From the NCBI GenBank assembly GCA_019510095.1, contig JAEKLB010000032.1, positions 1-35,720 of the forward strand: a DNA stretch of 35,720 nucleotides, in the 5' to 3' direction. Shown here one piece after another: positions 6,752-24,971 of the stretch; position 1 is the stretch's first letter; each line of letters begins with the position of its first letter. The notes beneath the pieces were generated by a model. It searched no databases. It had not been told where the DNA came from and worked only from the letters and a program-made list of their open reading frames with translations. The stretch comes from Acidobacteriota bacterium. GTDB taxonomy: Bacteria; Actinomycetota; Acidimicrobiia; Acidimicrobiales; CADCSY01. Position numbers and translations under genes: made by a program.

Positions 6752-8059
6752 GTGCTGCGGTTCGGCACGGACGGTGTCCGTGGCGTCGCCGGCGTCGAGC
6801 TCACACCGGAATACGCGCTCTCCCTCGGGCGGGCAGCAGCCCGCGTGCTCGGCGGGCCCCGGTTCCTGGTGGGCCGCGACACGCGTGAATCGGGCTCGCT
6901 GCTCGAGGCCGCGCTGGCAGCGGGCATGGCGGCCGAGGGTGTGGACGTCGAGCTGCTCGGTGTGCTGCCCACGCCGGGCGTGGCGTGGCACGCGGCGCGC
7001 GACGGTGTGCCGGCGGCCATGATCTCGGCGTCGCACAACCCGTATCAGGACAACGGCATCAAGCTCTTCGCGGCGGGCGGGTTGAAGCTCTCCGACGACG
7101 TGGAGCAGCGCATCGAGGCCGAGCTCGGCGGGGCGACGGCGGGCCCGGTCAGCGGGCTGGTGCGGCGGCGGGTGTTCCTCGCCGACGAGCCGTACCAGCA
7201 GTTCCTGGTGCAGTCGCTCGACGGTCGTGGCCTCGACGGCATCCACGTGGTGGTCGACTGCGCCAACGGCGCCGCGTCGCACGTGGCCCCAGCAGTGCTG
7301 GAGGCGCTCGGGGCACGGGTCGACGTCATGGGGGCAGAGCCCGACGGGCGAAACATCAACGACGGGTGCGGGTCGACGCATCCTGAAGCGCTGCAGCGGC
7401 GGGTCGTGGAGGTCGGCGCCGACGTCGGCCTGGCCTTCGACGGTGATGCCGATCGGGTCCTGGCCGTCGACGCGCGCGGGCGCCTGGTCGACGGCCACCA
7501 TCTCATCGCCATCTGCGCCATCGACCTCGCTGGTCGCGGCCTGCTCGCTGCCGACACTGTGGTCGTCACCGTGATGACGAACCTGGGCTTCCGGCTGGCG
7601 ATGGCCGAACGGGGCATCACCGTCGTGGAGACAGCGGTCGGCGACCGCTACGTGCTCGAGGCGCTCGGCCAGGGCGGGTTCTCGCTCGGTGGGGAGCAGT
7701 CGGGGCACCTCATCTTCAGCGACCTGGCGACCACGGGCGACGGCATCCTCTCCGGGCTGCAGGTGCTCGACCTGATGGCTCGCTCGGTGCGCCCGTTGGC
7801 CGATCTGGCTGCCGAGGCGATGACGTCCTTGCCCCAGGTGCTGCGCAACGTGAAGGTGAAGCAGCGAGGTCTCGATGTCGGTGCCGCCGTCGCCGAGGAG
7901 GTCGCGGCGGTCGAAGGTGAGCTCGGCGAGCGGGGGCGGGTGCTGATCCGGCCGAGCGGGACCGAGCCCCTCGTGCGAGTCATGGTCGAGGCCCCCACGG
8001 CCGAGGAGGCGGAATCAGCCGCCGCCCGGCTGGCCGCCGCCGTCGAGCGAGTCAGCTGA
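6752..8059 (+). CDS. glmM: Phosphoglucosamine mutase
   Basis: GlmM converts glucosamine-6-phosphate to glucosamine-1-phosphate for UDP-GlcNAc and peptidoglycan synthesis. The 435-residue product starts at a GTG two bases after rpsI and reads MLRFGTDGVRGVAG. The phosphoserine is S94 in ISASHNP, the metal loop is DGDADR from D230, and the sugar-binding GGEQSGH and phosphate-binding RPSGTEPLVRVM loops follow. Position after rpsI is the actinobacterial norm. Its last eight bases overlap the convergent flavodoxin-like gene. GlmS, which makes its substrate, is encoded 3 kb downstream. Confidence 0.96.
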   Translation: MLRFGTDGVRGVAGVELTPEYALSLGRAAARVLGGPRFLVGRDTRESGSLLEAALAAGMAAEGVDVELLGVLPTPGVAWHAARDGVPAAMISASHNPYQDNGIKLFAAGGLKLSDDVEQRIEAELGGATAGPVSGLVRRRVFLADEPYQQFLVQSLDGRGLDGIHVVVDCANGAASHVAPAVLEALGARVDVMGAEPDGRNINDGCGSTHPEALQRRVVEVGADVGLAFDGDADRVLAVDARGRLVDGHHLIAICAIDLAGRGLLAADTVVVTVMTNLGFRLAMAERGITVVETAVGDRYVLEALGQGGFSLGGEQSGHLIFSDLATTGDGILSGLQVLDLMARSVRPLADLAAEAMTSLPQVLRNVKVKQRGLDVGAAVAEEVAAVEGELGERGRVLIRPSGTEPLVRVMVEAPTAEEAESAAARLAAAVERVS

Positions 8060-8536: not shown

Positions 8537-9943
8537 TCATGCCAGCTCGGACCGCAATGCTGCCTTTTGCACCTTGCCCATGGCGTTTCTGGGGAGCTCG
8601 TCGACGACCACCACTCGCTTCGGCACCTTGAACGCGGCGAGGCGCGCCCGCGCCGAGGTTCGGATCGCTTCGGGGTCGAGGGCGGCGTTTGCTTCCGGAA
8701 CGATCACGGCGACGACCGCCTCGCCGAAGTCGGCGTCGGGGACGCCGATCACGGCGCTCTCGAGCACGCCGTCGATGGCGTCGAGGGCGTCCTCGACCTC
8801 CTTGGGGTACACGTTGAGCCCCCCGGAGATGATGAGGTCCTTCGACCGTCCGACGATGGTGAGGTAGCCCTCGTCGTCGAAGGTGCCGAGATCGCCGGTC
8901 TTGAAGAAGCCGTCCGTGGTGAATTCGGTGTCGTTGAGCTCGGGCCGGCGCCAGTAGCCGGGGAACACGTTGGGCCCCCGCAGCTCGATGCCACCCACGC
9001 CGCCGTCGTCCTGATCGGCCAGCCGGATCTCGACGCCGGGCAGCGGCAACCCGACGGTCCCTGGCTTGCGGGCGCCGTGGAGCGGGTTCGACGTGTTCAT
9101 CACCGTCTCGGTCATGCCGTAGCGCTCGAGGATGGCGTGGCCGGTTCGCGCCTCGAAGGCCTCGTGGGTGGAGGCCAACAGAGGGGCCGAACCCGACACG
9201 AACAAGCGCATGTTCCGGCAGACATCGGCCGTGAACCGCTCGTCGCCGAGGAGGCGTGTGTAGTGGGTCGGCACCCCCATGAACACCGTGCAACGGGGCA
9301 GCTCTTCGATCACCGCGTCAACGTCGAAGCGGGGGAGGAAGACCATGCCCGTGCCATTGGCCAGGACGCAGTTGAGGGCGACGAACAGCCCATGGGCATG
9401 GAAGATCGGCAGGGCGTGGAGCAGCACGTCGTCGGGGACGAAGCCCCACGCCTCGTGCAGCGCGGCGGCATTGGAGGCCAGGTTGGCCTGGGTGAGCATC
9501 GCTCCCTTCGGCCGGCCGGTCGTCCCGCTCGTGTAGAGCATCACCGCGACGTCGTCGGGCTCGGCCACGACGCTGTCGAAGGTGGTCGGCTGCGCCGCCG
9601 CCAGCCAATCGATGTCGGCGATCGATCGGACGACCACCGTCGGCTCGGCGTCGCCGACGATGGCTTCGACCTCACCGCCCGTGTAGCCGGGGTTCATCGG
9701 GAGGAACACCGCTCCTGCCCGTAGGCAGGCCAGGTACAGGAACACCACCTCCGGCGCCTTCTCCACGTGGGCGGCGACTCGGTCGCCGGGCCCCACGCCG
9801 GCCGCCCGCAGACCGTTGGCGATGGCGGCGCTGGCGGCGTCGGCGTCGCCGTAGGTGAAGGTCTGCCCCCCGGGGAGATCGAGCAGCACCGTCTCCGGCG
9901 CCGGCCGCCGGCGGGCAAACAGGGTGGGGAGCGTCCGGTTCAT
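8537..9943 (-). CDS. Acyl-CoA synthetase of the MatB (malonyl-CoA synthetase) type
   Basis: An ANL-superfamily adenylate-forming enzyme of 468 residues. The P-loop YTSGTTGRPKG is at 137-147, followed by LFVSGSAPLL, ERYGMTETVMNTSNP, GPNVFPGYWRRPE, the hinge GRSKDLIISGGLNVYPKE, and the C-terminal lysine in NAMGKVQKAAL. Several stretches (HALPIFHAHGLF, MGVPTHYTRLL, RYGMTETVMNTSNP, SGGLNVYPKEVE) resemble the MatB/ACSF3 branch, which converts malonate or methylmalonate + ATP + CoA to the CoA thioester. Substrate assignment is inference. Its ATG overlaps the stop of the upstream amidase gene (ATGA), so the two are probably made together. Confidence 0.85.
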   Translation of the reverse strand: MNRTLPTLFARRRPAPETVLLDLPGGQTFTYGDADAASAAIANGLRAAGVGPGDRVAAHVEKAPEVVFLYLACLRAGAVFLPMNPGYTGGEVEAIVGDAEPTVVVRSIADIDWLAAAQPTTFDSVVAEPDDVAVMLYTSGTTGRPKGAMLTQANLASNAAALHEAWGFVPDDVLLHALPIFHAHGLFVALNCVLANGTGMVFLPRFDVDAVIEELPRCTVFMGVPTHYTRLLGDERFTADVCRNMRLFVSGSAPLLASTHEAFEARTGHAILERYGMTETVMNTSNPLHGARKPGTVGLPLPGVEIRLADQDDGGVGGIELRGPNVFPGYWRRPELNDTEFTTDGFFKTGDLGTFDDEGYLTIVGRSKDLIISGGLNVYPKEVEDALDAIDGVLESAVIGVPDADFGEAVVAVIVPEANAALDPEAIRTSARARLAAFKVPKRVVVVDELPRNAMGKVQKAALRSELA

Positions 9944-11085
9944 GTCCAACTGTCGGCGATGGCGTCCTCGATGGCCAAGCCGGCCCGCAGCAGCTCGTCC
10001 TCCCTGCCCCATGGGCCGACGAGCTGGAGGCTGGCCGGCACCGGCCCGGCAGTGGGCACGGGCATCGACAGCCCGGGCACGCCGGCCAGGTTGGCCGCCC
10101 GGGTCCGGAGGACGACGTAGGACCGGCCCGGGTTCGACAGGGGCGGGGGCGGCTCGACCATGGTCGGCAGCGCCAGCAGATCGACCCGGCCGAACAGGCC
10201 CTCGAGCTGGCTGTGCCAGGTGGTGCGGTCGGCCTCGGCGGCGGCCCGGTCCTCGGCGGTGATGGCGGCGGCCGAGGCGAACCGCCGCAGCGTGTCGTCA
10301 CCGAGGCCCTCGGGCCGGTCACGGGCCAGCCAGCCGATGGTGTCGTGGACCTCGCCCAAGAGGACGACCCGTGCTGCGTCATCGGCGGTGTTCCACGCCA
10401 GGGGGTCGAGCCCGACGACGGTGATGGCGGCGGCCGAGAGGGCCCGGTCGATGGCGTCGTCGACGGCAGGATCGGCCGAGATCCGGATCCGGCCGACGAC
10501 GAGCGGTCGCGACTCGGCCAGGGCGAACCCCGGCTCGAGGAGGGCCATGCCGACGCCCAGCCCGGCGACGTCCCGCGCCAGGGGGCCAATGCTGTCCATG
10601 GTGGGGGCAAGGGCAGCAACGCCCTCCATCGGGAACCGGCCCCATGTCGTCTTGAGGCCGGCGATGCCGCAGCAGCCGGCTGGGAACCGGACGGAGCCCC
10701 CGGTGTCGGTGCCGAGGCCCAGGTCGACCTCGCCGCGCGCCACCGCCACCGCCGGCCCGCTCGACGACCCGCCAGGCACCAGGTCGGGGAATCGGGGGTT
10801 CACGGGCGTGCCGTACCACGGGTTGAGGCCGGTGGTGCCGAAGCCGAGCTCGTGCATGTTGGCCTTGCCGACGATCCGGGCGCCGGCCGCCCGCAGGCCG
10901 GCCAGGCAGGGGGCGTCGGTGGCCGCGGGCTGGGCGTGGTCGGCCACCGCCCGGCAGCCGTTGGTGGTGAGCACCCCTTCGACGTCGAAGACGTCCTTGA
11001 CCGCCACGGTGATCCCGTGACCCTCAGTCGCCAGCCGGGTGATGAACGTGGCGTCGGTAGCCTGGCCCTGCATGTGCGGCATCAT
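9940..11085 (-). CDS. Amidase signature family hydrolase
   Basis: Amidase signature enzymes hydrolyse amide bonds with a Ser-cisSer-Lys triad. Visible here: K30 in ITVAVKDVFDVEG, cis-Ser S107 in PGGSSSGPAVAVARG, and nucleophile S131 in TDTGGSVRFPAGCCGIAGLKTT. The N-terminus is short; the catalytic lysine is only 30 residues in. I chose ATG 11085 because AGGA lies five bases upstream; ATG 11073 is the alternative. Either way the gene meets glmS head to head, since the glmS ATG is at 11072. It is 381 residues long and its stop overlaps the start of the MatB-like gene. That pairing suggests an amide of malonate or a similar acid as substrate, as for malonamidase E2, but this is inference. GatA is unlikely because GatB and GatC are not adjacent. 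Confidence 0.85.
   Translation of the reverse strand: MMPHMQGQATDATFITRLATEGHGITVAVKDVFDVEGVLTTNGCRAVADHAQPAATDAPCLAGLRAAGARIVGKANMHELGFGTTGLNPWYGTPVNPRFPDLVPGGSSSGPAVAVARGEVDLGLGTDTGGSVRFPAGCCGIAGLKTTWGRFPMEGVAALAPTMDSIGPLARDVAGLGVGMALLEPGFALAESRPLVVGRIRISADPAVDDAIDRALSAAAITVVGLDPLAWNTADDAARVVLLGEVHDTIGWLARDRPEGLGDDTLRRFASAAAITAEDRAAAEADRTTWHSQLEGLFGRVDLLALPTMVEPPPPLSNPGRSYVVLRTRAANLAGVPGLSMPVPTAGPVPASLQLVGPWGREDELLRAGLAIEDAIADSWT
11058..11063 (+). promoter_or_regulatory. Candidate leaderless -10 box for glmS
   Basis: TAGCCT ends eight bases before the glmS ATG and lies inside the amidase coding sequence. The same hexamer precedes the 52-residue gene at 26247. No clear -35 box. Confidence 0.4.
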
Positions 11086-14000
11086 CGCGGTCCTGCAGCG
11101 GTCGTCGCGCCGCCCGGTTCCCGCCGTCGACGACCTGCGGGCACTCACCGAGCGGGCCGCCGCTGCCGGGCACGACGCCGAGGGTCTCAACCAGGCGGCG
11201 ACGGCCATCGAGGAGCTCGACCGGTTGCTACAGGGCAGCGTGGGCGTTCGGGCCCTGCTGGGCGACGAGCGCGCCCTGCACGCGCTCGACGAGCCGATGG
11301 CCAGGGTGCGCGCGACGACCGTCGAACAGGTCGAGGCGGCGATCGGAGAGGGCAGCCCGAGCTTCGACGAGCTGAGCGGTGCCGACCTCGAGGCGTTCAA
11401 CGCTGCCCTCCTCCGGCTGAAGGACGCCATCTGGGCGGTCGAGCGAGATCGGCTGCGGACCGCCAGGGAGGTGGCGGCGCTGGCTGGCGAGCTGCGCGGT
11501 GACGCCGCCGTCGAGGCGTTCACTGCCGTGCAGATCGCCCTCTCGGCCATCGACCGGCTCGAGGTGCGGGGCCGCGACTCGGCCGGCCTGCACCTGCTGG
11601 TCGAAGGCCACGGCCTCGACCTCGACGCGCCCGAGGTGGCCGAGCTGTTCGCCGGCCGGCTCACTGACCCGTTGTTCGAGTCGCTCGCCGTGCGCACGCC
11701 GAACGGCCTCCTCAGCTTTGCCTACAAGGCGGCCGCCGAGATCGGTGAGCTGGGCGACAACACCCGCGCCCTGCGCGCCGCCATCGTGTCCGACGAGCTG
11801 TTGCATCGGGCGCTTGCCGCTGACGCCGCCAGGGTCACGGTGCTGGGCCACACCCGCTGGGCCAGCGTGGGCATCATCTCCGAGGCCAACGCCCACCCGC
11901 TCAACTCCGACGAGGAAGGCATGGCCGGGCCGTACGTCACCGCCGCGCTCAACGGCGACGTCGACAACTACGCGGCCTTGCGCGATGCCAACGGCCTGCG
12001 GATACCGGCCGAGGTCACGACCGACGCCAAGGTCATCCCCGCGCTCGTCTCCCGCCGGCTGGCCGGCGGTGACGACGTGGTCACCTCGTTCCGGGAGACG
12101 GTCGCCTCCTTCGACGGCTCGGTCGCCATCGGTGCCAGCACCGCCACCGACCCGGGGCGCCTGTTGCTCGCTCTGCGGGGGAGCGGCCAGGCGCTGTATG
12201 TCGGTCTCGCCGAGGACGCGTTCATCGTGGCCAGCGAGCCCTACGGCCTGGTCGAGCAGACGACGCGCTATCTGCGCATGGACGGCGAGACGGCGTGGGG
12301 AGCCACAGGAACGGCTGGGCAGATCGTCGTGCTCGATCGCGAGGCGGCAGGAGACCTTGCTGGGGTCGGTCGGATGGCCTACGACGGCACCGAGCTGCCG
12401 GTCGATGCGTCGGAGGTGACGACCGCGTCGATCACGACCCGTGACATCGATCGGGGGTCGTCGCCCCACTACCTGCTCAAGGAGATCGGCGAGGCCTCGC
12501 AATCGTTCCGCAAGACCTTGCGGGGCAAGCTCGTCGAGCGGGGCGATCATCTCGGGGTCGTGCTGGGCGATGACACGCTGCCCAGTGCCGTTCGTGACCG
12601 GGTGGCCAGTGGCGCCATCGACCACGTCGTCGTCATCGGCCAGGGCACGGCGGCAGTGGCGGGTCAGGCGGTGGCCGCGGCCATCGAGCTCGCTACCCGC
12701 GGAACGGGCCTGCGGGTGGAGGCGGTCCTTGCGACCGAGCTGTCGGGCTTCCGGCTCGTCGACGAGATGGCGGGCACCCTCGTCGTCGCCATCAGCCAGT
12801 CCGGCACCACCACCGATACCAATCGCACCGTCGACCTCGTTCGCGCTCGCGGCGCGGCGGTGGTTGCCATCGTGAACCGGCGGAACAGCGATCTGGTGGA
12901 GAAGGCCGACGGCGTGCTCTACACGTCCGACGGGCGCGACGTCGAGATGAGCGTGGCCTCGACCAAGGCGTTCTACGCCCAGGTGGCGGCCGGGTTCCTG
13001 CTGGCGACCGCCATCGCCGAGGCGGCTGGTGTCGCCATCCTCGACGGGTCGTGGGCCGACGTGCTCCGCGGCCTCCACGACCTGCCTGCAGCCATGGACC
13101 TCGTGGTCGCCAACCGCCCCGCCATCGCCGATGCCGCCGCCGTCGCGCCGTCGCGCCGCTACTGGGCCGTGGTCGGTAACGGGCCCAACCGGATCGCGGC
13201 TGAGGAGATCCGGATCAAGCTGAGCGAGCTCTGTTACAAGTCGATCGCCTGCGACGGCACCGAGGACAAGAAGCACATCGACCTGTCGTCCGAGCCGCTC
13301 ATCCTGGTGTGCGCGGCCGGCCTCTCGGGTGCCAACGCCGACGATGTCGCCAAGGAGGTCGGCATCTACCGGGCGCACAAGGCCGCGCCCGTCGTCATCG
13401 CCACGGCCGGCGAGAACCGCTTCGCCGCGGCGATGGCCGTGATCGAGGTGCCTGCCGTGCACGAGGCGCTGGCGTTCGTGCTGTCGGCGATGGTCGGTCA
13501 TCTCTTCGGCTATGAAGCGGCGCTCGCCATCGACGCCCAGGCCCTACCGCTCCGCCAGATGCGAGCCGCCGTCGAGAAGGTGGCGTCGGCGCACCCCGAT
13601 GTCGTGCTGCACCTGCTGGCGGCCGAGCTGTCGGTTCCGTCGGCGCGCTTCGTCGATGCCCTCCGGGCTGGCGCCTACGACGGCCACCTCGAGGCGAGCA
13701 CGGCGCTGCGGGTCACGTCAGTGCTTCGCTACGCCCGCGGTCAGCTGCCACTCGAGGCCTACGAGCTCGACTTTGGTGCCATCGGCACGCCGAGCGTGGT
13801 CATCGACGATCTGGTTGCCGCCCTGACCAAGGCGATCGACGAGCTGACCCGGCCCATCGATGCCATCAAGCACCAGGCCAAGACCGTCACCGTGGGTATC
13901 TCCCGCTCGGAGGAGGACTTGTTCGCGGCGCCGGTGGTGCAGGCAGTGCTCGCCGCTGGTGCACCCCGAGATCGACTGACCTATCGATCGTTGCGCACGC

Positions 14001-14479
14001 TGGCCGCCCTCGACCCCGCCATCGCCACCATCACCGGGTACGTGCGGTACCAGGTCGAGGGCGATCCCGACGGCGACGCCACGATCACTGTGGTCGACAA
14101 GGGTGGGGTCGCGTCAGGCATGGCGTCGCGGGCCGACCACGGCGGACCGCTGCAGGGCACCAAGCACCGCGCCGCGCGCCAGCGATGGGTCACCGCGGTG
14201 ATGGGCTACGACGGTCGCACGCTCATCCACGTGCCGGAGACCAAGGGCAGCGAGACAACGGCCATCACGTCGTTGCACGTCGAGTTCCGTGACCGGATCG
14301 AGCCGGCGGTGGCGCGGGCGGTGCTCGAGGGCTACCAGGACCGGTTCGCCGCCATCCGGGAGGCGGTCACCGAGGTGGAGCCGACCTTCCGCGAGGAGGT
14401 CCTGGGCACCGTGCCCGTCACCGACCTGCTCACGCAACCGGTGCACTTCCTCGCCCGGCACTGGAAGGCGACGACATGA
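11072..14479 (+). CDS. glmS: Giant glutamine:fructose-6-phosphate aminotransferase-like protein (GlmS), 1135 residues
   Basis: GlmS makes glucosamine-6-phosphate from fructose-6-phosphate and glutamine. All functional parts are visible: nucleophile Cys2 in MCGIIAVLQ, which fixes the start; about 135 extra, mostly helical residues; RLEVRGRDSAG (about 164); GHTRWASVG (about 258); NGDVDNY and TTDAK (glutamine binding); SIS1 with ISQSGTTTDTN (about 574) and VASTKAF (about 627); SIS2 with GNGPN (about 701), KLSELCY and KKHIDL in place of the isomerase Glu and His. Normal GlmS is about 600-625 residues. Here roughly 300 more follow SIS2, including KHQAKTVTVG (about 932), which resembles the usual C-terminal LAKSVTVE, and then about 200 residues I do not recognise. 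It occupies the usual glmS place and its stop overlaps acpS (ATGA). Reading-frame integrity is good throughout. Confidence 0.88.
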   Translation: MCGIIAVLQRSSRRPVPAVDDLRALTERAAAAGHDAEGLNQAATAIEELDRLLQGSVGVRALLGDERALHALDEPMARVRATTVEQVEAAIGEGSPSFDELSGADLEAFNAALLRLKDAIWAVERDRLRTAREVAALAGELRGDAAVEAFTAVQIALSAIDRLEVRGRDSAGLHLLVEGHGLDLDAPEVAELFAGRLTDPLFESLAVRTPNGLLSFAYKAAAEIGELGDNTRALRAAIVSDELLHRALAADAARVTVLGHTRWASVGIISEANAHPLNSDEEGMAGPYVTAALNGDVDNYAALRDANGLRIPAEVTTDAKVIPALVSRRLAGGDDVVTSFRETVASFDGSVAIGASTATDPGRLLLALRGSGQALYVGLAEDAFIVASEPYGLVEQTTRYLRMDGETAWGATGTAGQIVVLDREAAGDLAGVGRMAYDGTELPVDASEVTTASITTRDIDRGSSPHYLLKEIGEASQSFRKTLRGKLVERGDHLGVVLGDDTLPSAVRDRVASGAIDHVVVIGQGTAAVAGQAVAAAIELATRGTGLRVEAVLATELSGFRLVDEMAGTLVVAISQSGTTTDTNRTVDLVRARGAAVVAIVNRRNSDLVEKADGVLYTSDGRDVEMSVASTKAFYAQVAAGFLLATAIAEAAGVAILDGSWADVLRGLHDLPAAMDLVVANRPAIADAAAVAPSRRYWAVVGNGPNRIAAEEIRIKLSELCYKSIACDGTEDKKHIDLSSEPLILVCAAGLSGANADDVAKEVGIYRAHKAAPVVIATAGENRFAAAMAVIEVPAVHEALAFVLSAMVGHLFGYEAALAIDAQALPLRQMRAAVEKVASAHPDVVLHLLAAELSVPSARFVDALRAGAYDGHLEASTALRVTSVLRYARGQLPLEAYELDFGAIGTPSVVIDDLVAALTKAIDELTRPIDAIKHQAKTVTVGISRSEEDLFAAPVVQAVLAAGAPRDRLTYRSLRTLAALDPAIATITGYVRYQVEGDPDGDATITVVDKGGVASGMASRADHGGPLQGTKHRAARQRWVTAVMGYDGRTLIHVPETKGSETTAITSLHVEFRDRIEPAVARAVLEGYQDRFAAIREAVTEVEPTFREEVLGTVPVTDLLTQPVHFLARHWKATT

Positions 14480-14847
14480 TCGGCATCGGTACCGATCTCG
14501 TCGAGCTCGACCGGTTTCGACTGGCACTGGCGCGCACGCCCTCGATCGTCGACCGGTTGTTCAGTGCCGAGGAGCGGGACTATGCCGGGCGCCAGGCTGA
14601 CCCGGCGCCTCGCCTGGCCGTGCGGTTCGCGGCCAAGGAGGCAGTGCTGAAGGCAATGGGCATCGGCCTGTGGAACTTCCCGCTACGCGAGATCGAGGTG
14701 GCGCGGGCCGAGTCCGGCGTGCCGTCGGTGGTGCTGCACGGCAAGGCGGCGGCGATGGCGGCCGACCGTGGTGTCGACCGCTGGCTGCTCACGCTCACCC
14801 ACACCGAATCCCTTGCCCAGGCGGTCGCGGTCGCGCTCCCGAGATGA
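14476..14847 (+). CDS. acpS: Holo-[acyl-carrier-protein] synthase
   Basis: AcpS transfers 4'-phosphopantetheine from CoA to the serine of acyl carrier protein, activating fatty acid synthesis. The 123-residue product has the two metal-binding motifs: MIGIGTDLVELDRF (D7) and RFAAKEAVLKAMGIG (E55). The C-terminal LTLTHTESLAQAVAVAL strand is typical. Its ATG overlaps the glmS stop, and its own stop overlaps the ATG of nnr, so translation of the three genes is probably coupled. This arrangement is common in actinobacteria. Confidence 0.95.
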   Translation: MIGIGTDLVELDRFRLALARTPSIVDRLFSAEERDYAGRQADPAPRLAVRFAAKEAVLKAMGIGLWNFPLREIEVARAESGVPSVVLHGKAAAMAADRGVDRWLLTLTHTESLAQAVAVALPR

Positions 14848-16217
14848 TCCCGGTTCTCACGCCCGACGAGGTTCGGGCGGTCGACGAGGCTGCTCCGGAG
14901 CCCGTGGCGGTGCTCATTGGCCGGGCCGGGGCCGCGGTGGCTCGATCGGCGCTCGAGCTCCTGGGCGGTGGCTATGGCCGGCGGGTCGTCGTCATCGCTG
15001 GCAAGGGCAACAACGGTGCCGATGGGCGGGAGGCGGCTCGGCTCCTGCGCCGTCGTGGCGTGCGGGTGGAGGTCGTCGACGCCACCGACGCGGCGGCGGT
15101 GCTGCCGAGCTGTGACCTGGTGATCGATGCCGCCTACGGCACTGGCTTCCGAGGTTCGTGGAACGCCCCGTCCACCGACGCGCCGGTGCTGGCCGTCGAC
15201 ATCCCGTCGGGCGTCGACGCTGGCACGGGTGACGCGTGCGATGGTGTTCTGCACGCCGTTCGGACGGTCACGTTCGCGGCGCTGAAGCCCGGCCTCCTGT
15301 TCGGCGCTGGTGCACGGCTCGCCGGTGAGATCGATCTCGCCGACATCGGCCTGGACGTCTCGCGGGCCACGGCGCATGTCGTCGAGCACCTCGACGTGGC
15401 TGCCTGGCTGCCGGCCCGCCGGCCTGACAGCCACAAGTGGAAGGCGGCGGCATGGGTGGTCGCCGGAAGCGCCGGCATGACCGGGGCAGCCACCCTCGCC
15501 ACCCGTGGTGCCCAGCGGGCAGGCGCCGGCTACGTCCGCCTGTCGTCGCCCGGCGCCGTCACCGACGCACCGGTTGAGGCGGTGGCGGTCGACCTCCCCG
15601 GCGTCGGTTGGGCCGACGAGGTGCTGGCCGACGTCGGCCGGTTCAAGGCGATGGTGGTCGGCCCCGGGCTGGGCCGGGCCAGCGACGACGACATCCGCCG
15701 CCTCGCCGCCGACTGCCCCCTGCCCATGGTCCTCGACGGCGATGCCCTCACCGCGCTCGCCGCCGCCCCACCCGGGTTCTGGGCAGAAACGCTCGCCAGG
15801 CGAGCGCAACTGCCCACAACTCGAGGAGCGGCGCGGGTGCTGACGCCGCACGACGGGGAGTACGCGCGCTTGGCGGGTGAGCCGCCCGGGCCTGACCGGA
15901 TCGACGCGGCACGGCGGTTGGCCGCCGCGACCGGGTGCACGGTGCTGCTCAAGGGGTCGACGACGGTGGTGGCCGAGCCCGACGGTTCGGCGCTCCTCGC
16001 CACCCAGGGCGACGCCCGGCTGGCGACGGCGGGGACCGGCGATGTGCTGGCCGGGATCATCGGCGCCCTGCTCGCGCAGGGCATGGCGCCAGCGCGGGCG
16101 GCGGCCGCTGGTGCATGGCTGCACGGCGCCGCGGCGCGTGTCGGCCCGTCGCGAGGGCTCGTTGCCGGTGACCTGCCAGACTGCCTGCCGCTCGTGTTCG
16201 ACCGATTGGGAGTGTGA
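14844..16217 (+). CDS. nnr: Bifunctional NAD(P)H-hydrate epimerase / ADP-dependent dehydratase
   Basis: The enzyme repairs hydrated NAD(P)H. The N-terminal YjeF domain (about 1-190) epimerises the hydrate and shows GKGNNGADGREAA, DAAYGTGFRG and VLAVDIPSGVDAGTG. The C-terminal ribokinase-like domain (about 205-457) dehydrates it using ADP and shows VVAGSAGMTGAA, GPGLGRAS, LTPHDGEYARL, LLKGSTTVV and the signature ATAGTGDVLAGIIGALLAQG. The 457 residues are slightly short for the fused family because the epimerase domain is compact. ATG 14844 overlaps the acpS stop and the CBS gene begins immediately after its stop. Confidence 0.94.
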   Translation: MIPVLTPDEVRAVDEAAPEPVAVLIGRAGAAVARSALELLGGGYGRRVVVIAGKGNNGADGREAARLLRRRGVRVEVVDATDAAAVLPSCDLVIDAAYGTGFRGSWNAPSTDAPVLAVDIPSGVDAGTGDACDGVLHAVRTVTFAALKPGLLFGAGARLAGEIDLADIGLDVSRATAHVVEHLDVAAWLPARRPDSHKWKAAAWVVAGSAGMTGAATLATRGAQRAGAGYVRLSSPGAVTDAPVEAVAVDLPGVGWADEVLADVGRFKAMVVGPGLGRASDDDIRRLAADCPLPMVLDGDALTALAAAPPGFWAETLARRAQLPTTRGAARVLTPHDGEYARLAGEPPGPDRIDAARRLAAATGCTVLLKGSTTVVAEPDGSALLATQGDARLATAGTGDVLAGIIGALLAQGMAPARAAAAGAWLHGAAARVGPSRGLVAGDLPDCLPLVFDRLGV

Positions 16218-16703
16218 ATGCCCGGCTCGTTGCCCGTCCATGACGTGATGACCACAGAGGTGCTGTCGTTCTGGCCCGGTGAGCCGGTGCAGGAGGCCTA
16301 CGACCGGCTGGTGGCCCGCGGCGTCGACGGTGGCCCGGTCGTCGACGACGACGGGACGGTGGTCGGGATGTTGAGCACCGACGATCTCCTCGTGCAGGAG
16401 ACGCAGCTGCACTACCCAACGGTGATCTCCTTGTTCGGCGCCTATCTCGAGCTGCCGTCGTCGCATCGCCGATTCGAGGACGAGCTCCGCAAAGCGGTTG
16501 CGGCCAAGGTCGAGGACGTCATGGCGCGCGAGGTCATCGCGTGCGCCGAGGACGACCCGCTCGAGCGGGCGGCCACGTTGATGCACGAGCACCATCTCTC
16601 GCGCCTTCCCGTCACCCGCGGTGCCCGCCTGGTCGGGATCGTCGCCCGGGGCGACATCCTGCGGGCAGTCATGGGCCAGGAGCCCGCCGAGGGAGCTGTG
16701 TGA
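16218..16703 (+). CDS. Tandem CBS-domain protein
   Basis: This 161-residue protein is two CBS domains and little else: the first from VHDVMTTEVLSFWPG to VVGMLSTDDLL (residues 7-55), the second from VEDVMAREVIACAEDD to LVGIVARGDILRAVMG (about 96-153), joined by a helical linker. CBS pairs bind adenine nucleotides and act as energy or ligand sensors; the partner is unknown. The ATG abuts the nnr stop, and its own stop overlaps the GTG of alr (GTGA), so it is made with Nnr and Alr. Cytoplasmic; no signal or membrane segment. Confidence 0.88.
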   Translation: MPGSLPVHDVMTTEVLSFWPGEPVQEAYDRLVARGVDGGPVVDDDGTVVGMLSTDDLLVQETQLHYPTVISLFGAYLELPSSHRRFEDELRKAVAAKVEDVMAREVIACAEDDPLERAATLMHEHHLSRLPVTRGARLVGIVARGDILRAVMGQEPAEGAV

Positions 16704-17821
16704 CCCGTCCGGCCTGGGCCGAGGTCGACCTCGGCGCGGTCCGTGACAACGTCAGGGCGCTGATCGAGGTGGCGGCGCCGGCCCAGCTGTGCGCGGTCGT
16801 CAAGGCCGACGGGTACGGCCACGGTGCGGTCGAGGTGGCCCGGACGGCGGTCGCCGCCGGTGCCACCTGGCTGGCGGTGGCATTGCCGGACGAGGGGCGG
16901 GCGCTGCGCGATGCCGGTCTCGACGTTCCGATCCTCCTGCTCTCGGAGCCGGAGCCCGAGGCGTGGGACGGCGTCGTCGCCGACCGGCTCACCCCGACCG
17001 TCTACAGCAGCAAGGGCATCGCGTCACTTGCGGTCCTCGCCGACACGGAGAAGCCGCTCGGCGTGCACCTCAAGGTCGACACGGGCATGCACCGAGTCGG
17101 TGTGGCCCCGGCCGAGGCCGTCGACCGGGCGAGGCAGGTGGTCGCGACCGGATCGCTTCGGCTCGACGCGGTGTGGACGCACTGCCCGGTCGCCGACGAA
17201 CCTGAGCACCCGTTCAACCAGATCCAGGCCGACCGGTTCGACGCCGTGCTCACCGACCTGCGAGCTGCCGGGATCGACATCCCGCTCGTCCACGCGGCCA
17301 ACTCGGCGGCGACTCTTGCCCACCCCCGGCTGCGCCACGACCTCGTGCGGTGCGGCATCGCCGTCTACGGCCTCGATCCCGGTCCCCAGCTCCGAGGGGC
17401 AGCCGACCTGCGGCCGGCCCTCTCGTTGCGGGCGCGCGTCTCACACGTGCAGCACATCGCCAAGGGCGAGGCGGTCTCCTACGGGCTCCGCCGGCCAGCG
17501 CCCGCCGACACGACGGTTGCCACCGTGCCGGTGGGCTACGCCGACGGGGTGGCCCGCCGCCTGCAGGAGGTCGGCGGCCAGGTCTTGATCGGGGGCCGGC
17601 GCTGCCCCTTGGCCGGCACCGTGACCATGGACCAGCTGATCGTCGACTGTGGCCCCGGCGCCGAGGTCGCCCCGGGCGACGAGGTCGTCCTGATCGGCCG
17701 CCAAGGTGACCAGGAGGTCACCGCTGCTGAATGGGCCGATCGCCTCGGGACCATCAGCTACGAGATCGTGTGCGGCATCGGGCCCCGGGTCCCTCGCGTC
17801 TACGTCGGCCGACCCTCCTAG
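16700..17821 (+). CDS. alr: Alanine racemase
   Basis: Alr is the PLP enzyme that makes D-alanine for peptidoglycan. The 373-residue product begins [17 protein letters not shown]. The PLP lysine is K35 in [12 protein letters not shown], and the second catalytic base is Y261 in AVSYGLRRP. Other signatures are [46 protein letters not shown] and [11 protein letters not shown]. The GTG start overlaps the CBS gene stop by four bases. Together with GlmS and GlmM it makes this a cell-wall precursor region. Confidence 0.96.
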
Positions 17822-23379: not shown

Positions 23380-24891
23380 TCAGGGTGCCTGCGTGGATGC
23401 TGAGCACAGCCTGGCGCGGGCGTGGTCAGCTCGCGACGTGGCCCGGTTCCAGCTGAGCGGGGCGTGGTTCTCGAGACGCGGGCGGCAGAGCCCTCGCACC
23501 ACGATGCGTCGATCTTTCTCGGGCAGGTCGGCCACGCCCCCGACCGACGCGGGCACGGCATCGTCGGACAGCGTGGCGAGGTAGGCGGGGTCGTATCGGC
23601 GGCCGCCGCCCGCGCGGCCGAGATCATGCCGAACGACGAGGGCCTCGGGGTTGCACGCGTTGAGCACCACGAGGATCACGAAGGCCAGCGCCCCGGCGGC
23701 GGGCGTGAACCACGCGCGATCACGCGCGAGGCCGGCGAGGCGCATGGCGAGGAGCACCAGCGCGAGGCCGATCCAGACCGCGCCGGCCTTGGCCACCAGG
23801 CGCAGCAGCGTCCATCCGTACGCGTCCTCGTAGAGGCTGAGTCGTCGTAGAGCGACCAGCAGCACGAGGAACGTCAGCGCCACGCTGACCGCGGTGAGCA
23901 CGGTGAAGCGCCGGCGGTCACGCCTGGTCGAGCGATCGGCAACGGCGCTGAGCAGGCCGAGGACGACAGCGGTCAGGACGGCCACGGCCAGCAGCTGGAA
24001 GTACCCGGTCCTGGCGTAGGCCGCGTAGGTGAGCCCGCGTGTCTCGAGCACCCGGTGGGCGCCACCCGCAGCCGCGACGACCTGCACTGTCGCGAACGCG
24101 GCGAAGAGGGCGGCGACGCTACCGAGCACGATGGTCCACTCCGTGACCCCGAGCTTCCAGCCCGTCGGCGGGAGTGGGCGGGAGGGCGACGCCGAGGCGA
24201 GGCGGAGCACACCGGCCATGCCGAGCGCGCCGATCACCGTCAACATCAGATGGGCGACGGCGTTGCCGGGCACCGAGATGTGCACGCGAAGCATCGACGC
24301 GAACACGGCGTCGGCCGAGACGAACAGCGCGACGAGGACGGCAACCAGGGGTACGGCGAGCGCGGCACCACGACCGACCTTCGCCAGGTTCTCGAAGCGC
24401 TCTTCCCGGTCACCGCGCGCCAACCAGCGGCGGGCTGGATCGACGAGGAAGCCGGCGGCGCGGGCCGCGTGGATGACGGCCAGGACCGCGCGCGACGCGA
24501 GGAGCGCCAGCGACAGGTCGGTCAGCCGTCCGTCACGGGCGAGCATGGCGCCGAGCAGCAGCAGCCCGGCGATGGCCAGCACGTCGGCGGGCACCAGCCA
24601 CGGGCTCATGCGGAGGGGGAGGAACAGGCTGATGACCGCAGCGGCCGCCAGGCAGGTGCGGCTCGCCGCGGTGTGCACCCGACCGCTGGCCTGGAGACCG
24701 ACAGCGGCGACCAGTGCGGCAAGACAACCGCCCACGCTCGCCACCCCTGAGCGAACACCGACATCGAAGGCCACGCCGCCGGCCAGGGCGATGATCGCCG
24801 CTCGGCGGTCGGCGGGTTCGGCCAGTGCCACCCGCCAGTCGGGCCAGCCGACGATGTCGGTCACGCTCCACCCGGCCACCTGGCTCCGCAT
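23380..24891 (-). CDS. DUF4173-type multi-pass membrane protein
   Basis: This 503-residue protein has about ten to twelve hydrophobic segments, e.g. AAIIALAGGVAFDVG, VPADVLAIAGLLLLGAML, AALAVPLVAVLVALFVS and ALAFVILVVLNACNPEALVV. The RRLSLYEDAYGWTLLRL segment near residue 370 resembles the DUF4173/DUF4153 family, whose function is unknown. The C-terminal 100 residues look soluble and contain DPAYLATLSDDAVPA. The ATG at 24891 is six bases after a CACACT -10 box, with no Shine-Dalgarno, so the transcript is probably leaderless. It is divergent from a TetR regulator and a palindrome lies inside its promoter, so it is a likely TetR target. Confidence 0.8.
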   Translation of the reverse strand: MRSQVAGWSVTDIVGWPDWRVALAEPADRRAAIIALAGGVAFDVGVRSGVASVGGCLAALVAAVGLQASGRVHTAASRTCLAAAAVISLFLPLRMSPWLVPADVLAIAGLLLLGAMLARDGRLTDLSLALLASRAVLAVIHAARAAGFLVDPARRWLARGDREERFENLAKVGRGAALAVPLVAVLVALFVSADAVFASMLRVHISVPGNAVAHLMLTVIGALGMAGVLRLASASPSRPLPPTGWKLGVTEWTIVLGSVAALFAAFATVQVVAAAGGAHRVLETRGLTYAAYARTGYFQLLAVAVLTAVVLGLLSAVADRSTRRDRRRFTVLTAVSVALTFLVLLVALRRLSLYEDAYGWTLLRLVAKAGAVWIGLALVLLAMRLAGLARDRAWFTPAAGALAFVILVVLNACNPEALVVRHDLGRAGGGRRYDPAYLATLSDDAVPASVGGVADLPEKDRRIVVRGLCRPRLENHAPLSWNRATSRADHARARLCSASTQAP

Positions 24892-24897
24892 GCCCCC

Positions 24898-24926
24898 AGT
24901 GTGATCGCCCTTGGGCGATCGGTCAA
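24898..24926 (-). promoter_or_regulatory. DUF4173 promoter with palindromic operator in the spacer
   Basis: On the minus strand TTGACC (24921-24926) and CACACT (24898-24903) are exactly 17 bases apart. A perfect palindrome, GATCGCCC-TT-GGGCGATC (24903-24920), fills the spacer. The -10 box ends six bases before the ATG. A bound repressor here would block RNA polymerase; the neighbouring TetR protein is the obvious candidate. A related half-site pair, TTGGGC (24911-24916) and GCCCAA (24934-24939), overlaps it. Confidence 0.7.
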
Positions 24927-24971
24927 GGCAGTTGCCCAAAGCGAATGGTCATCACAACGCGCCAGCATCGG

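Follow-up and report, generated by a model that had tools for sequence, protein, structure and literature searches.

A double-length GlmS-like protein in the place of canonical GlmS across a large part of the Acidimicrobiia

The locus and the architecture of the encoded protein

The 35,720-nucleotide stretch of DNA analysed here (the window) carries a gene for a GlmS-like protein of 1135 residues, which lies between glmM and three further genes, each of the four neighbours being named by a family match over cut-off:

6752..8059, forward strand: glmM, phosphoglucosamine mutase, which catalyses the step after GlmS (TIGR01455, 514.7 bits, over cut-off)
11072..14479, forward strand: the whole large GlmS-like gene, 1135 amino acids, ATG start, stop at 14477-14479 (translation and 69 full-length relatives)
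14476..14847, forward strand: acpS-like holo-ACP synthase, its first codon overlapping the large gene's stop (TIGR00556 over cut-off)
14670..16217, forward strand: nnr, NAD(P)H-hydrate dehydratase/epimerase, given at its mechanical ORF limits (TIGR00196 over cut-off)
16541..17821, forward strand: alr, alanine racemase (TIGR00492 over cut-off, 340 bits)

This chromosomal slot is widely shared. Among large-form loci, all 60 with 4 kb of flank or more have glmM upstream, and 70 of 71 are followed downstream by acpS, nnr or alr. Canonical glmS genes of other Acidimicrobiia occupy the same glmM-glmS-acpS-nnr-alr order (for example L083-L086 and L144-L149). Large glmS genes away from the glmM-acpS neighbourhood were found at three loci outside the class (L152 in G300 C4, L154 in G189 and L155 in G261) and at one inside it (L158 in G040), which suggests transfer or rearrangement. 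In the window itself, positions 8537-11037 are taken up by two reverse-strand genes, one for an AMP-binding enzyme at 8540-10012 and one for an amidase at about 9943-11037, which part glmM from the large glmS, its direct neighbour in most relatives. A small stand-alone protein with two CBS domains (by similarity; 16218-16703, forward strand) is encoded between nnr and alr, as in many, not all, relatives, and a DUF4153 protein of 519 amino acids lies at 23380-24939 on the reverse strand. A search for an RNA switch of the glmS-ribozyme type gave no Rfam match within the window.

The frame runs uninterrupted for 1135 codons from the ATG at 11072, and the protein begins MCGIIAVL (residues 1-8), with Cys2 immediately after the initiator Met. 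A longer open reading frame has a mechanical GTG start at 11039; the ATG was taken as the start because it alone yields the N-terminal Cys common to relatives. The RGRDSAG motif occupies residues 166-172, so that 157 residues separate it from MCGIIAVL, vs 18 in E. coli GlmS, a net excess of about 139. SIS2 ends near residue 820 and is followed by 315 residues; KHQAKTVTVG stands at residues 933-942, with 193 residues beyond it that have no Pfam match. These counts confirm the outline given by the initial annotation, which had described a GlmS-type enzyme of about twice normal size in a single frame, Cys2 directly after the start, about 135 residues between MCGIIAVL and RGRDSAG, about 300 residues after SIS2 and about 200 unrecognised residues past a tail-like motif. 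Two additions had been overlooked: about 48 extra residues between RGRDSAG and HTRWA (87 residues apart vs 38 in E. coli), and a stretch of about 105 residues that separates SIS2 from the C-tail and leaves the latter held at both ends. The protein can thus be divided as follows:

11072..11098, forward strand: residues 1-9, first glutaminase strand with the catalytic Cys2 (aligns with the invariant E. coli C1; model strand 3-9)
11099..11500, forward strand: residues 10-143, inserted helical bundle without a Pfam match, with invariant G58, E107, D118, W121 and D126 (alignment, structure model, conservation)
11501..11596, forward strand: residues 144-175, canonical helix and RGRDSAG motif (166-172), aligning with E. 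coli RRLEYRGYDSAG
11597..11737, forward strand: residues 176-222 (approximate limits), a further, smaller stretch inserted into the glutaminase domain (from the E. coli GlmS alignment)
11738..12391, forward strand: residues 223-440, remaining glutaminase domain with R262, W263 (channel gate), N294, G295 and D318 (PF13522 above gathering score; residue mapping)
12434..13531, forward strand: residues 455-820, SIS1 and SIS2 isomerase domains with T526, S575, Q576, S577, T580, S630, K716, E719 and H735 (PF01380 above gathering score; residue mapping; Foldseek to GlmS isomerase domains, TMt 0.8-0.87)
13532..13843, forward strand: residues 821-924, helical block between SIS2 and the C-tail (alignment; model)
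13844..13909, forward strand: residues 925-946, C-tail LTRPIDAIKHQAKTVTVGISRS, in which K937 corresponds to E. coli K603 (of its 22 positions, 16 are the same in all 25 diverse members compared)
13910..14476, forward strand: residues 947-1135, C-terminal domain past the C-tail, tentatively of PAS/GAF-like topology, without a Pfam match (AF2 of 822-1135, Foldseek, Pfam scan of 70 members)

A contig scan returned at least 576 relatives, of which the best 80 were retained. Sixty-nine of these aligned over their full length, were 54-72% identical to the window protein and had the same architecture, which rules out that the frame was joined by sequencing error. The architecture is kept in more divergent members as well (L156 and L157, 42-46% identity). 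The large gene of one genome, G131, is broken into two frames of 812 and 431 residues (L160, G131 C1:1179749-1182446), through a frameshift or an assembly error.

A conserved core in a divergent family

GlmS stands at the entry to cell-wall synthesis, supplying its first dedicated precursor, and is a textbook case of ammonia channelling. In the window protein Pfam recognises PF01380 (SIS, 69 bits vs a gathering cut-off of 25) and PF13522 (GATase_6, 42.3 vs 27 bits); the second SIS domain is missed by Pfam and detected by GlmS profiles and the structure model. The curated GlmS models match at scores under their cut-offs: TIGR01135 covers residues 249-819 at 224 bits (215 bits in the genome search), vs a whole-protein cut-off of 418.05, and NF001484 covers residues 246-820 at 241.5 bits, vs 381.

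We compared 25 diverse large forms with the E. coli enzyme and with canonical GlmS of Acidimicrobiia, Proteobacteria, Bacteroidota, Bacillota, Fusobacteriota and archaea; the E. coli sequence used agrees with the PDB alignment. Twenty-three of the 25 E. coli positions checked are identical or conservatively kept. The glutaminase residues C1, R73, W74, N98, G99 and D123 (E. coli numbering) are invariant in 25/25 large forms, as are K485, E488, H504 and K603 of the isomerase/synthase half. At the sugar-phosphate site six of eight positions are kept (S347, Q348, S349, T352 and S401, with T302 as S or T), and the other two differ in every one of the 25, C300 being replaced by Q and S303 by A, of which S303A is found in some canonical GlmS too. 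Core identity averages 65% among the large forms and 46% among the canonical ones, but 28% between the two groups. An unrooted tree parts the two groups by a single, fully supported branch of 2.7 substitutions per site, and without an outgroup it is compatible both with rapid change in place and with an old separate lineage.

The structure model points the same way as the residue mapping. At full length it matches GlmS and GFAT structures (Foldseek E down to 2e-24). Segments of at least three residues under pLDDT 50 in the monomer model are limited to 627-629, 724-739 and 937-945, and these contain the counterparts of E. coli V399, H504 and K603, respectively, which meet at the dimer active site of known GlmS. 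Such low values are as expected if the protein works as a GlmS-like dimer, low confidence alone being no proof of it.

To follow the distribution of the two forms, we scored 149 Acidimicrobiia genomes at least 85% complete (mostly drafts, some in one contig), counting a match over the GlmS cut-off as canonical and a match to the C-terminal profile as large. The large form alone was found in 64 genomes and canonical GlmS alone in 80; none had both and 5 had neither (Fisher 1e-36 for exclusion, which overstates the case because genomes were treated as independent). Thus the survey for a second, normal glmS that had been proposed earlier returned no genome with both forms. Among the genomes scored as lacking both, G135 carries a 753-residue frame with a fragmentary match of 186 bits, and the other four may reflect assembly gaps or true absences. 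Both forms are spread over many families, including inside the window's own order, and the large form occupies the place of canonical GlmS across a large part of the Acidimicrobiia, in nearly half of the sampled genomes. Among 397 genomes of the phylum, the large form occurs outside the class in seven (G154, G182, G189, G242, G261, G300 and G310), six of which have no canonical glmS; the seventh, G189, has both, possibly through contamination (estimated at 5%). Outside Actinomycetota the scope was plasmid records and the contig scan (best 80 of at least 576); of 144 plasmid records, none covers 80% of the query.

The source genome, a draft of 227 contigs estimated to be 97.3% complete, was checked by family search. 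A TIGR01135 search found no second ordinary glmS in it; the sole other match is a glutaminase-only protein in a 540-aa frame, PurF-like by size. The possibility raised earlier, of a second ordinary glmS beside an inactive protein, therefore found no counterpart there. NagB was considered as a source of glucosamine-6-phosphate and rejected, as no nagB scored above cut-off in the source genome (a single weak match of 27.5 bits). The large protein is the only candidate found in this genome for making glucosamine-6-phosphate. A role in cell-wall precursor supply, as first suggested, is backed by the glmM and alr neighbours and by the missing canonical glmS. Further along the pathway, the best GlmU match in the source genome scores 352 bits, just under the cut-off of 366.85 (L143, G000 C84:18321-19373), and covers positions 2-344 of 452 in a 386-residue frame, so GlmU may be shortened or split.

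The C-tail, the added regions and what they may do

Conservation within the large protein peaks at the C-tail. What had been called a tail-like motif, KHQAKTVTVG, proves to be the true GlmS C-tail, with K937 aligned to E. coli K603. When residues 822-1135 were modelled alone (AF2, pLDDT 94.5, pTM 0.65), the domain past the C-tail began with a helix and two strands, continued with two helices and three strands and ended in helices. This order of elements fits that of PAS and GAF domains, whose antiparallel five-stranded sheet runs strand-strand-helices-strand-strand-strand. The top Foldseek match of the C-terminal part is L-GDH180 (7jsr, E 0.009), and most of the matches ranked below it are sensor domains of GAF/PAS type (E about 0.02-0.2); no match reaches E 0.001 and TM-scores are low, so the fold assignment is tentative. 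No Pfam GAF or PAS model matched residues 947-1135 in any of 70 members at E 0.5, the PDB sequence search with the C-terminal profile gave no match, and Foldseek against viral structures gave nothing significant. The domain has 24 invariant positions, several of them charged (R1020, K1031, D1047 and R1049). Its modelled topology favours a part in regulation, short of proof; regulation is one of three possible roles of the additions put forward by the initial annotation, the others being a second binding site and a link to another partner.

The sequence of the helical bundle varies between members, 5 of its roughly 130 positions being invariant. Scans against Pfam and NCBIfam, both with the added regions on their own and with all members, gave chance-level matches only, and neither main added region belongs to a Pfam family; the known common small domains that had been considered as an outcome are thus absent from these separate searches. 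Weak GNAT and transaminase matches were dismissed as isolated and inconsistent.

The large protein is very probably the cell's glutamine-dependent glucosamine-6-phosphate synthase, acting in canonical GlmS's place, because the two forms are mutually exclusive and share a slot, and because no other glmS, or nagB above cut-off, is present in the source genome. By analogy with E. coli GlmS, from which the chemistry is transferred (the residue conservation itself being observed), Cys2 would hydrolyse glutamine and the ammonia would pass through the Trp263 gate, and the SIS domains would isomerise and aminate fructose-6-phosphate using K716, E719, H735 and the C-tail lysine K937. The added parts surround the moving pieces of the enzyme, with the helical bundle seated in the glutaminase domain, and the C-tail, tethered between the helical block and the PAS/GAF-like C-terminal domain, would be the control point: a ligand on the C-terminal domain would hold or release it, thereby linking glutamine hydrolysis to sugar amination or disconnecting the two. 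We infer ligand sensing by this domain, and control of the C-tail and of ammonia-channel closure, from the confident model of the C-terminal domain, its PAS/GAF strand order, the weak and mostly GAF/PAS matches and the conservation of the C-tail. Control is the most likely purpose of the additions, and an enzyme role combined with a regulatory role of the added domains is, taken as one statement, reasonably probable. The specific form of it, in which a PAS/GAF-like sensor on the C-tail opens or closes the ammonia channel in response to a metabolite (e.g. UDP-GlcNAc, a nucleotide or a nitrogen signal), the large enzyme having displaced ordinary GlmS at the same chromosomal position in these lineages, is put forward tentatively. 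Counting against the combined reading of synthase and control are the missed equivalog cut-off, the C300Q and S303A changes, the weak C-terminal Foldseek matches and the presence of both forms in G189.

The main rival keeps the same enzyme activity and makes the added domains structural, serving dimer stabilisation, a higher oligomer or channel sealing with no regulatory ligand. The variability of the helical bundle is as for a scaffold, no ligand-binding family was recognised by sequence in the added regions, and in large glutamate dehydrogenase the extra mass lies partly in inter-subunit contacts (PMC8175468). However, the invariant and partly charged positions of the C-terminal domain, and its likeness in topology to sensor domains, speak for something other than a scaffold, and we regard a purely structural role as rather unlikely. 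The same chemistry might instead act on a different sugar phosphate, with glucosamine-6-phosphate coming from elsewhere; the invariant C300Q and S303A lie near the sugar site and core identity to canonical GlmS is as low as 28%, but the large form and canonical GlmS exclude each other and share one glmM-linked slot, the source genome has no other glmS and no nagB above cut-off, and the catalytic residues are kept, which makes this quite improbable. An artefact or dead paralogue, that is, a misjoined frame or a non-functional relative in a genome whose canonical glmS escaped detection, could draw on the state of the source genome, a 227-contig draft estimated at 97.3% complete. It is refuted by the architecture and active site conserved across genomes: the 69 full-length relatives share both, the large form never accompanies canonical glmS in the 149 Acidimicrobiia genomes, some of them single-contig, and we give the idea practically no weight.

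If the large protein is the synthase of these cells, annotation through GlmS equivalog models would call glmS missing in large-form genomes. About 190 residues beyond the C-tail, in a stand-in enzyme found across many families of one class, amount to a natural experiment on the control of the C-tail and the channel. No published account of a GlmS of this kind was found in the searchable open-licence literature, and the main text of an Acidimicrobiia marker paper (PMC5962788) contains none of the terms glucosamine, SIS domain and glutamine.

Comparison with known systems

Canonical GlmS (EC 2.6.1.16; TIGR01135, NF001484; E. coli 1jxa and 2j6h) shares with the large form the order glutaminase-SIS1-SIS2-C-tail, the catalytic residues and the place near glmM. 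It has about 610 residues, whereas the large form has 1135, with additions at three main places, and its C-tail is the end of the chain, whereas that of the large form is internal. With 28% core identity, a long separate branch and scores below the equivalog cut-off, the large form is set apart; it was not filed under the GlmS equivalog because the curated cut-off was tested and missed. We consider that it probably works like GlmS yet belongs to a separate family of its own, deeply diverged within the same superfamilies.

The C-tail of ordinary GlmS covers the sugar pocket and helps to form the ammonia channel. In human GFAT-1 the C-loop covers the sugar pocket (PMC7000685), and the ammonia channel of GlmS is formed by the Trp74 gate together with C-tail residues (PMC7948480). 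Tags at its ends perturb human GFAT-1 (PMC7000685), and a domain past the C-tail therefore needs particular accommodation. Eukaryotic GFAT (human GFAT-1, 6r4e and related entries) gives the best Foldseek matches of the full large-form model. It is a GlmS-type enzyme allosterically controlled by UDP-GlcNAc, whose binding residues have been named (PMC7000685). Its feedback site lies in the isomerase domain and no domain follows its C-tail, whereas the large form has its C-terminal domain there.

GAF/PAS sensor domains (e.g. the PDE5A GAF, 3lfv, and the A. aeolicus nlh2 GAF, 4g3v) have a helix and strand order like that of the C-terminal domain and make up most of its weak Foldseek matches, with no Pfam GAF/PAS sequence match in 70 members and no significant structural match. 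Closest in spirit is L-GDH180 (7jsr), a large form of a common metabolic enzyme whose PAS-type and ACT-like modules have been proposed as metabolic sensors (PMC8175468). Its catalytic core is unrelated and its structural match to the C-terminal part is weak (E 0.009, low TM-score), but it offers a precedent for an enlarged metabolic enzyme.
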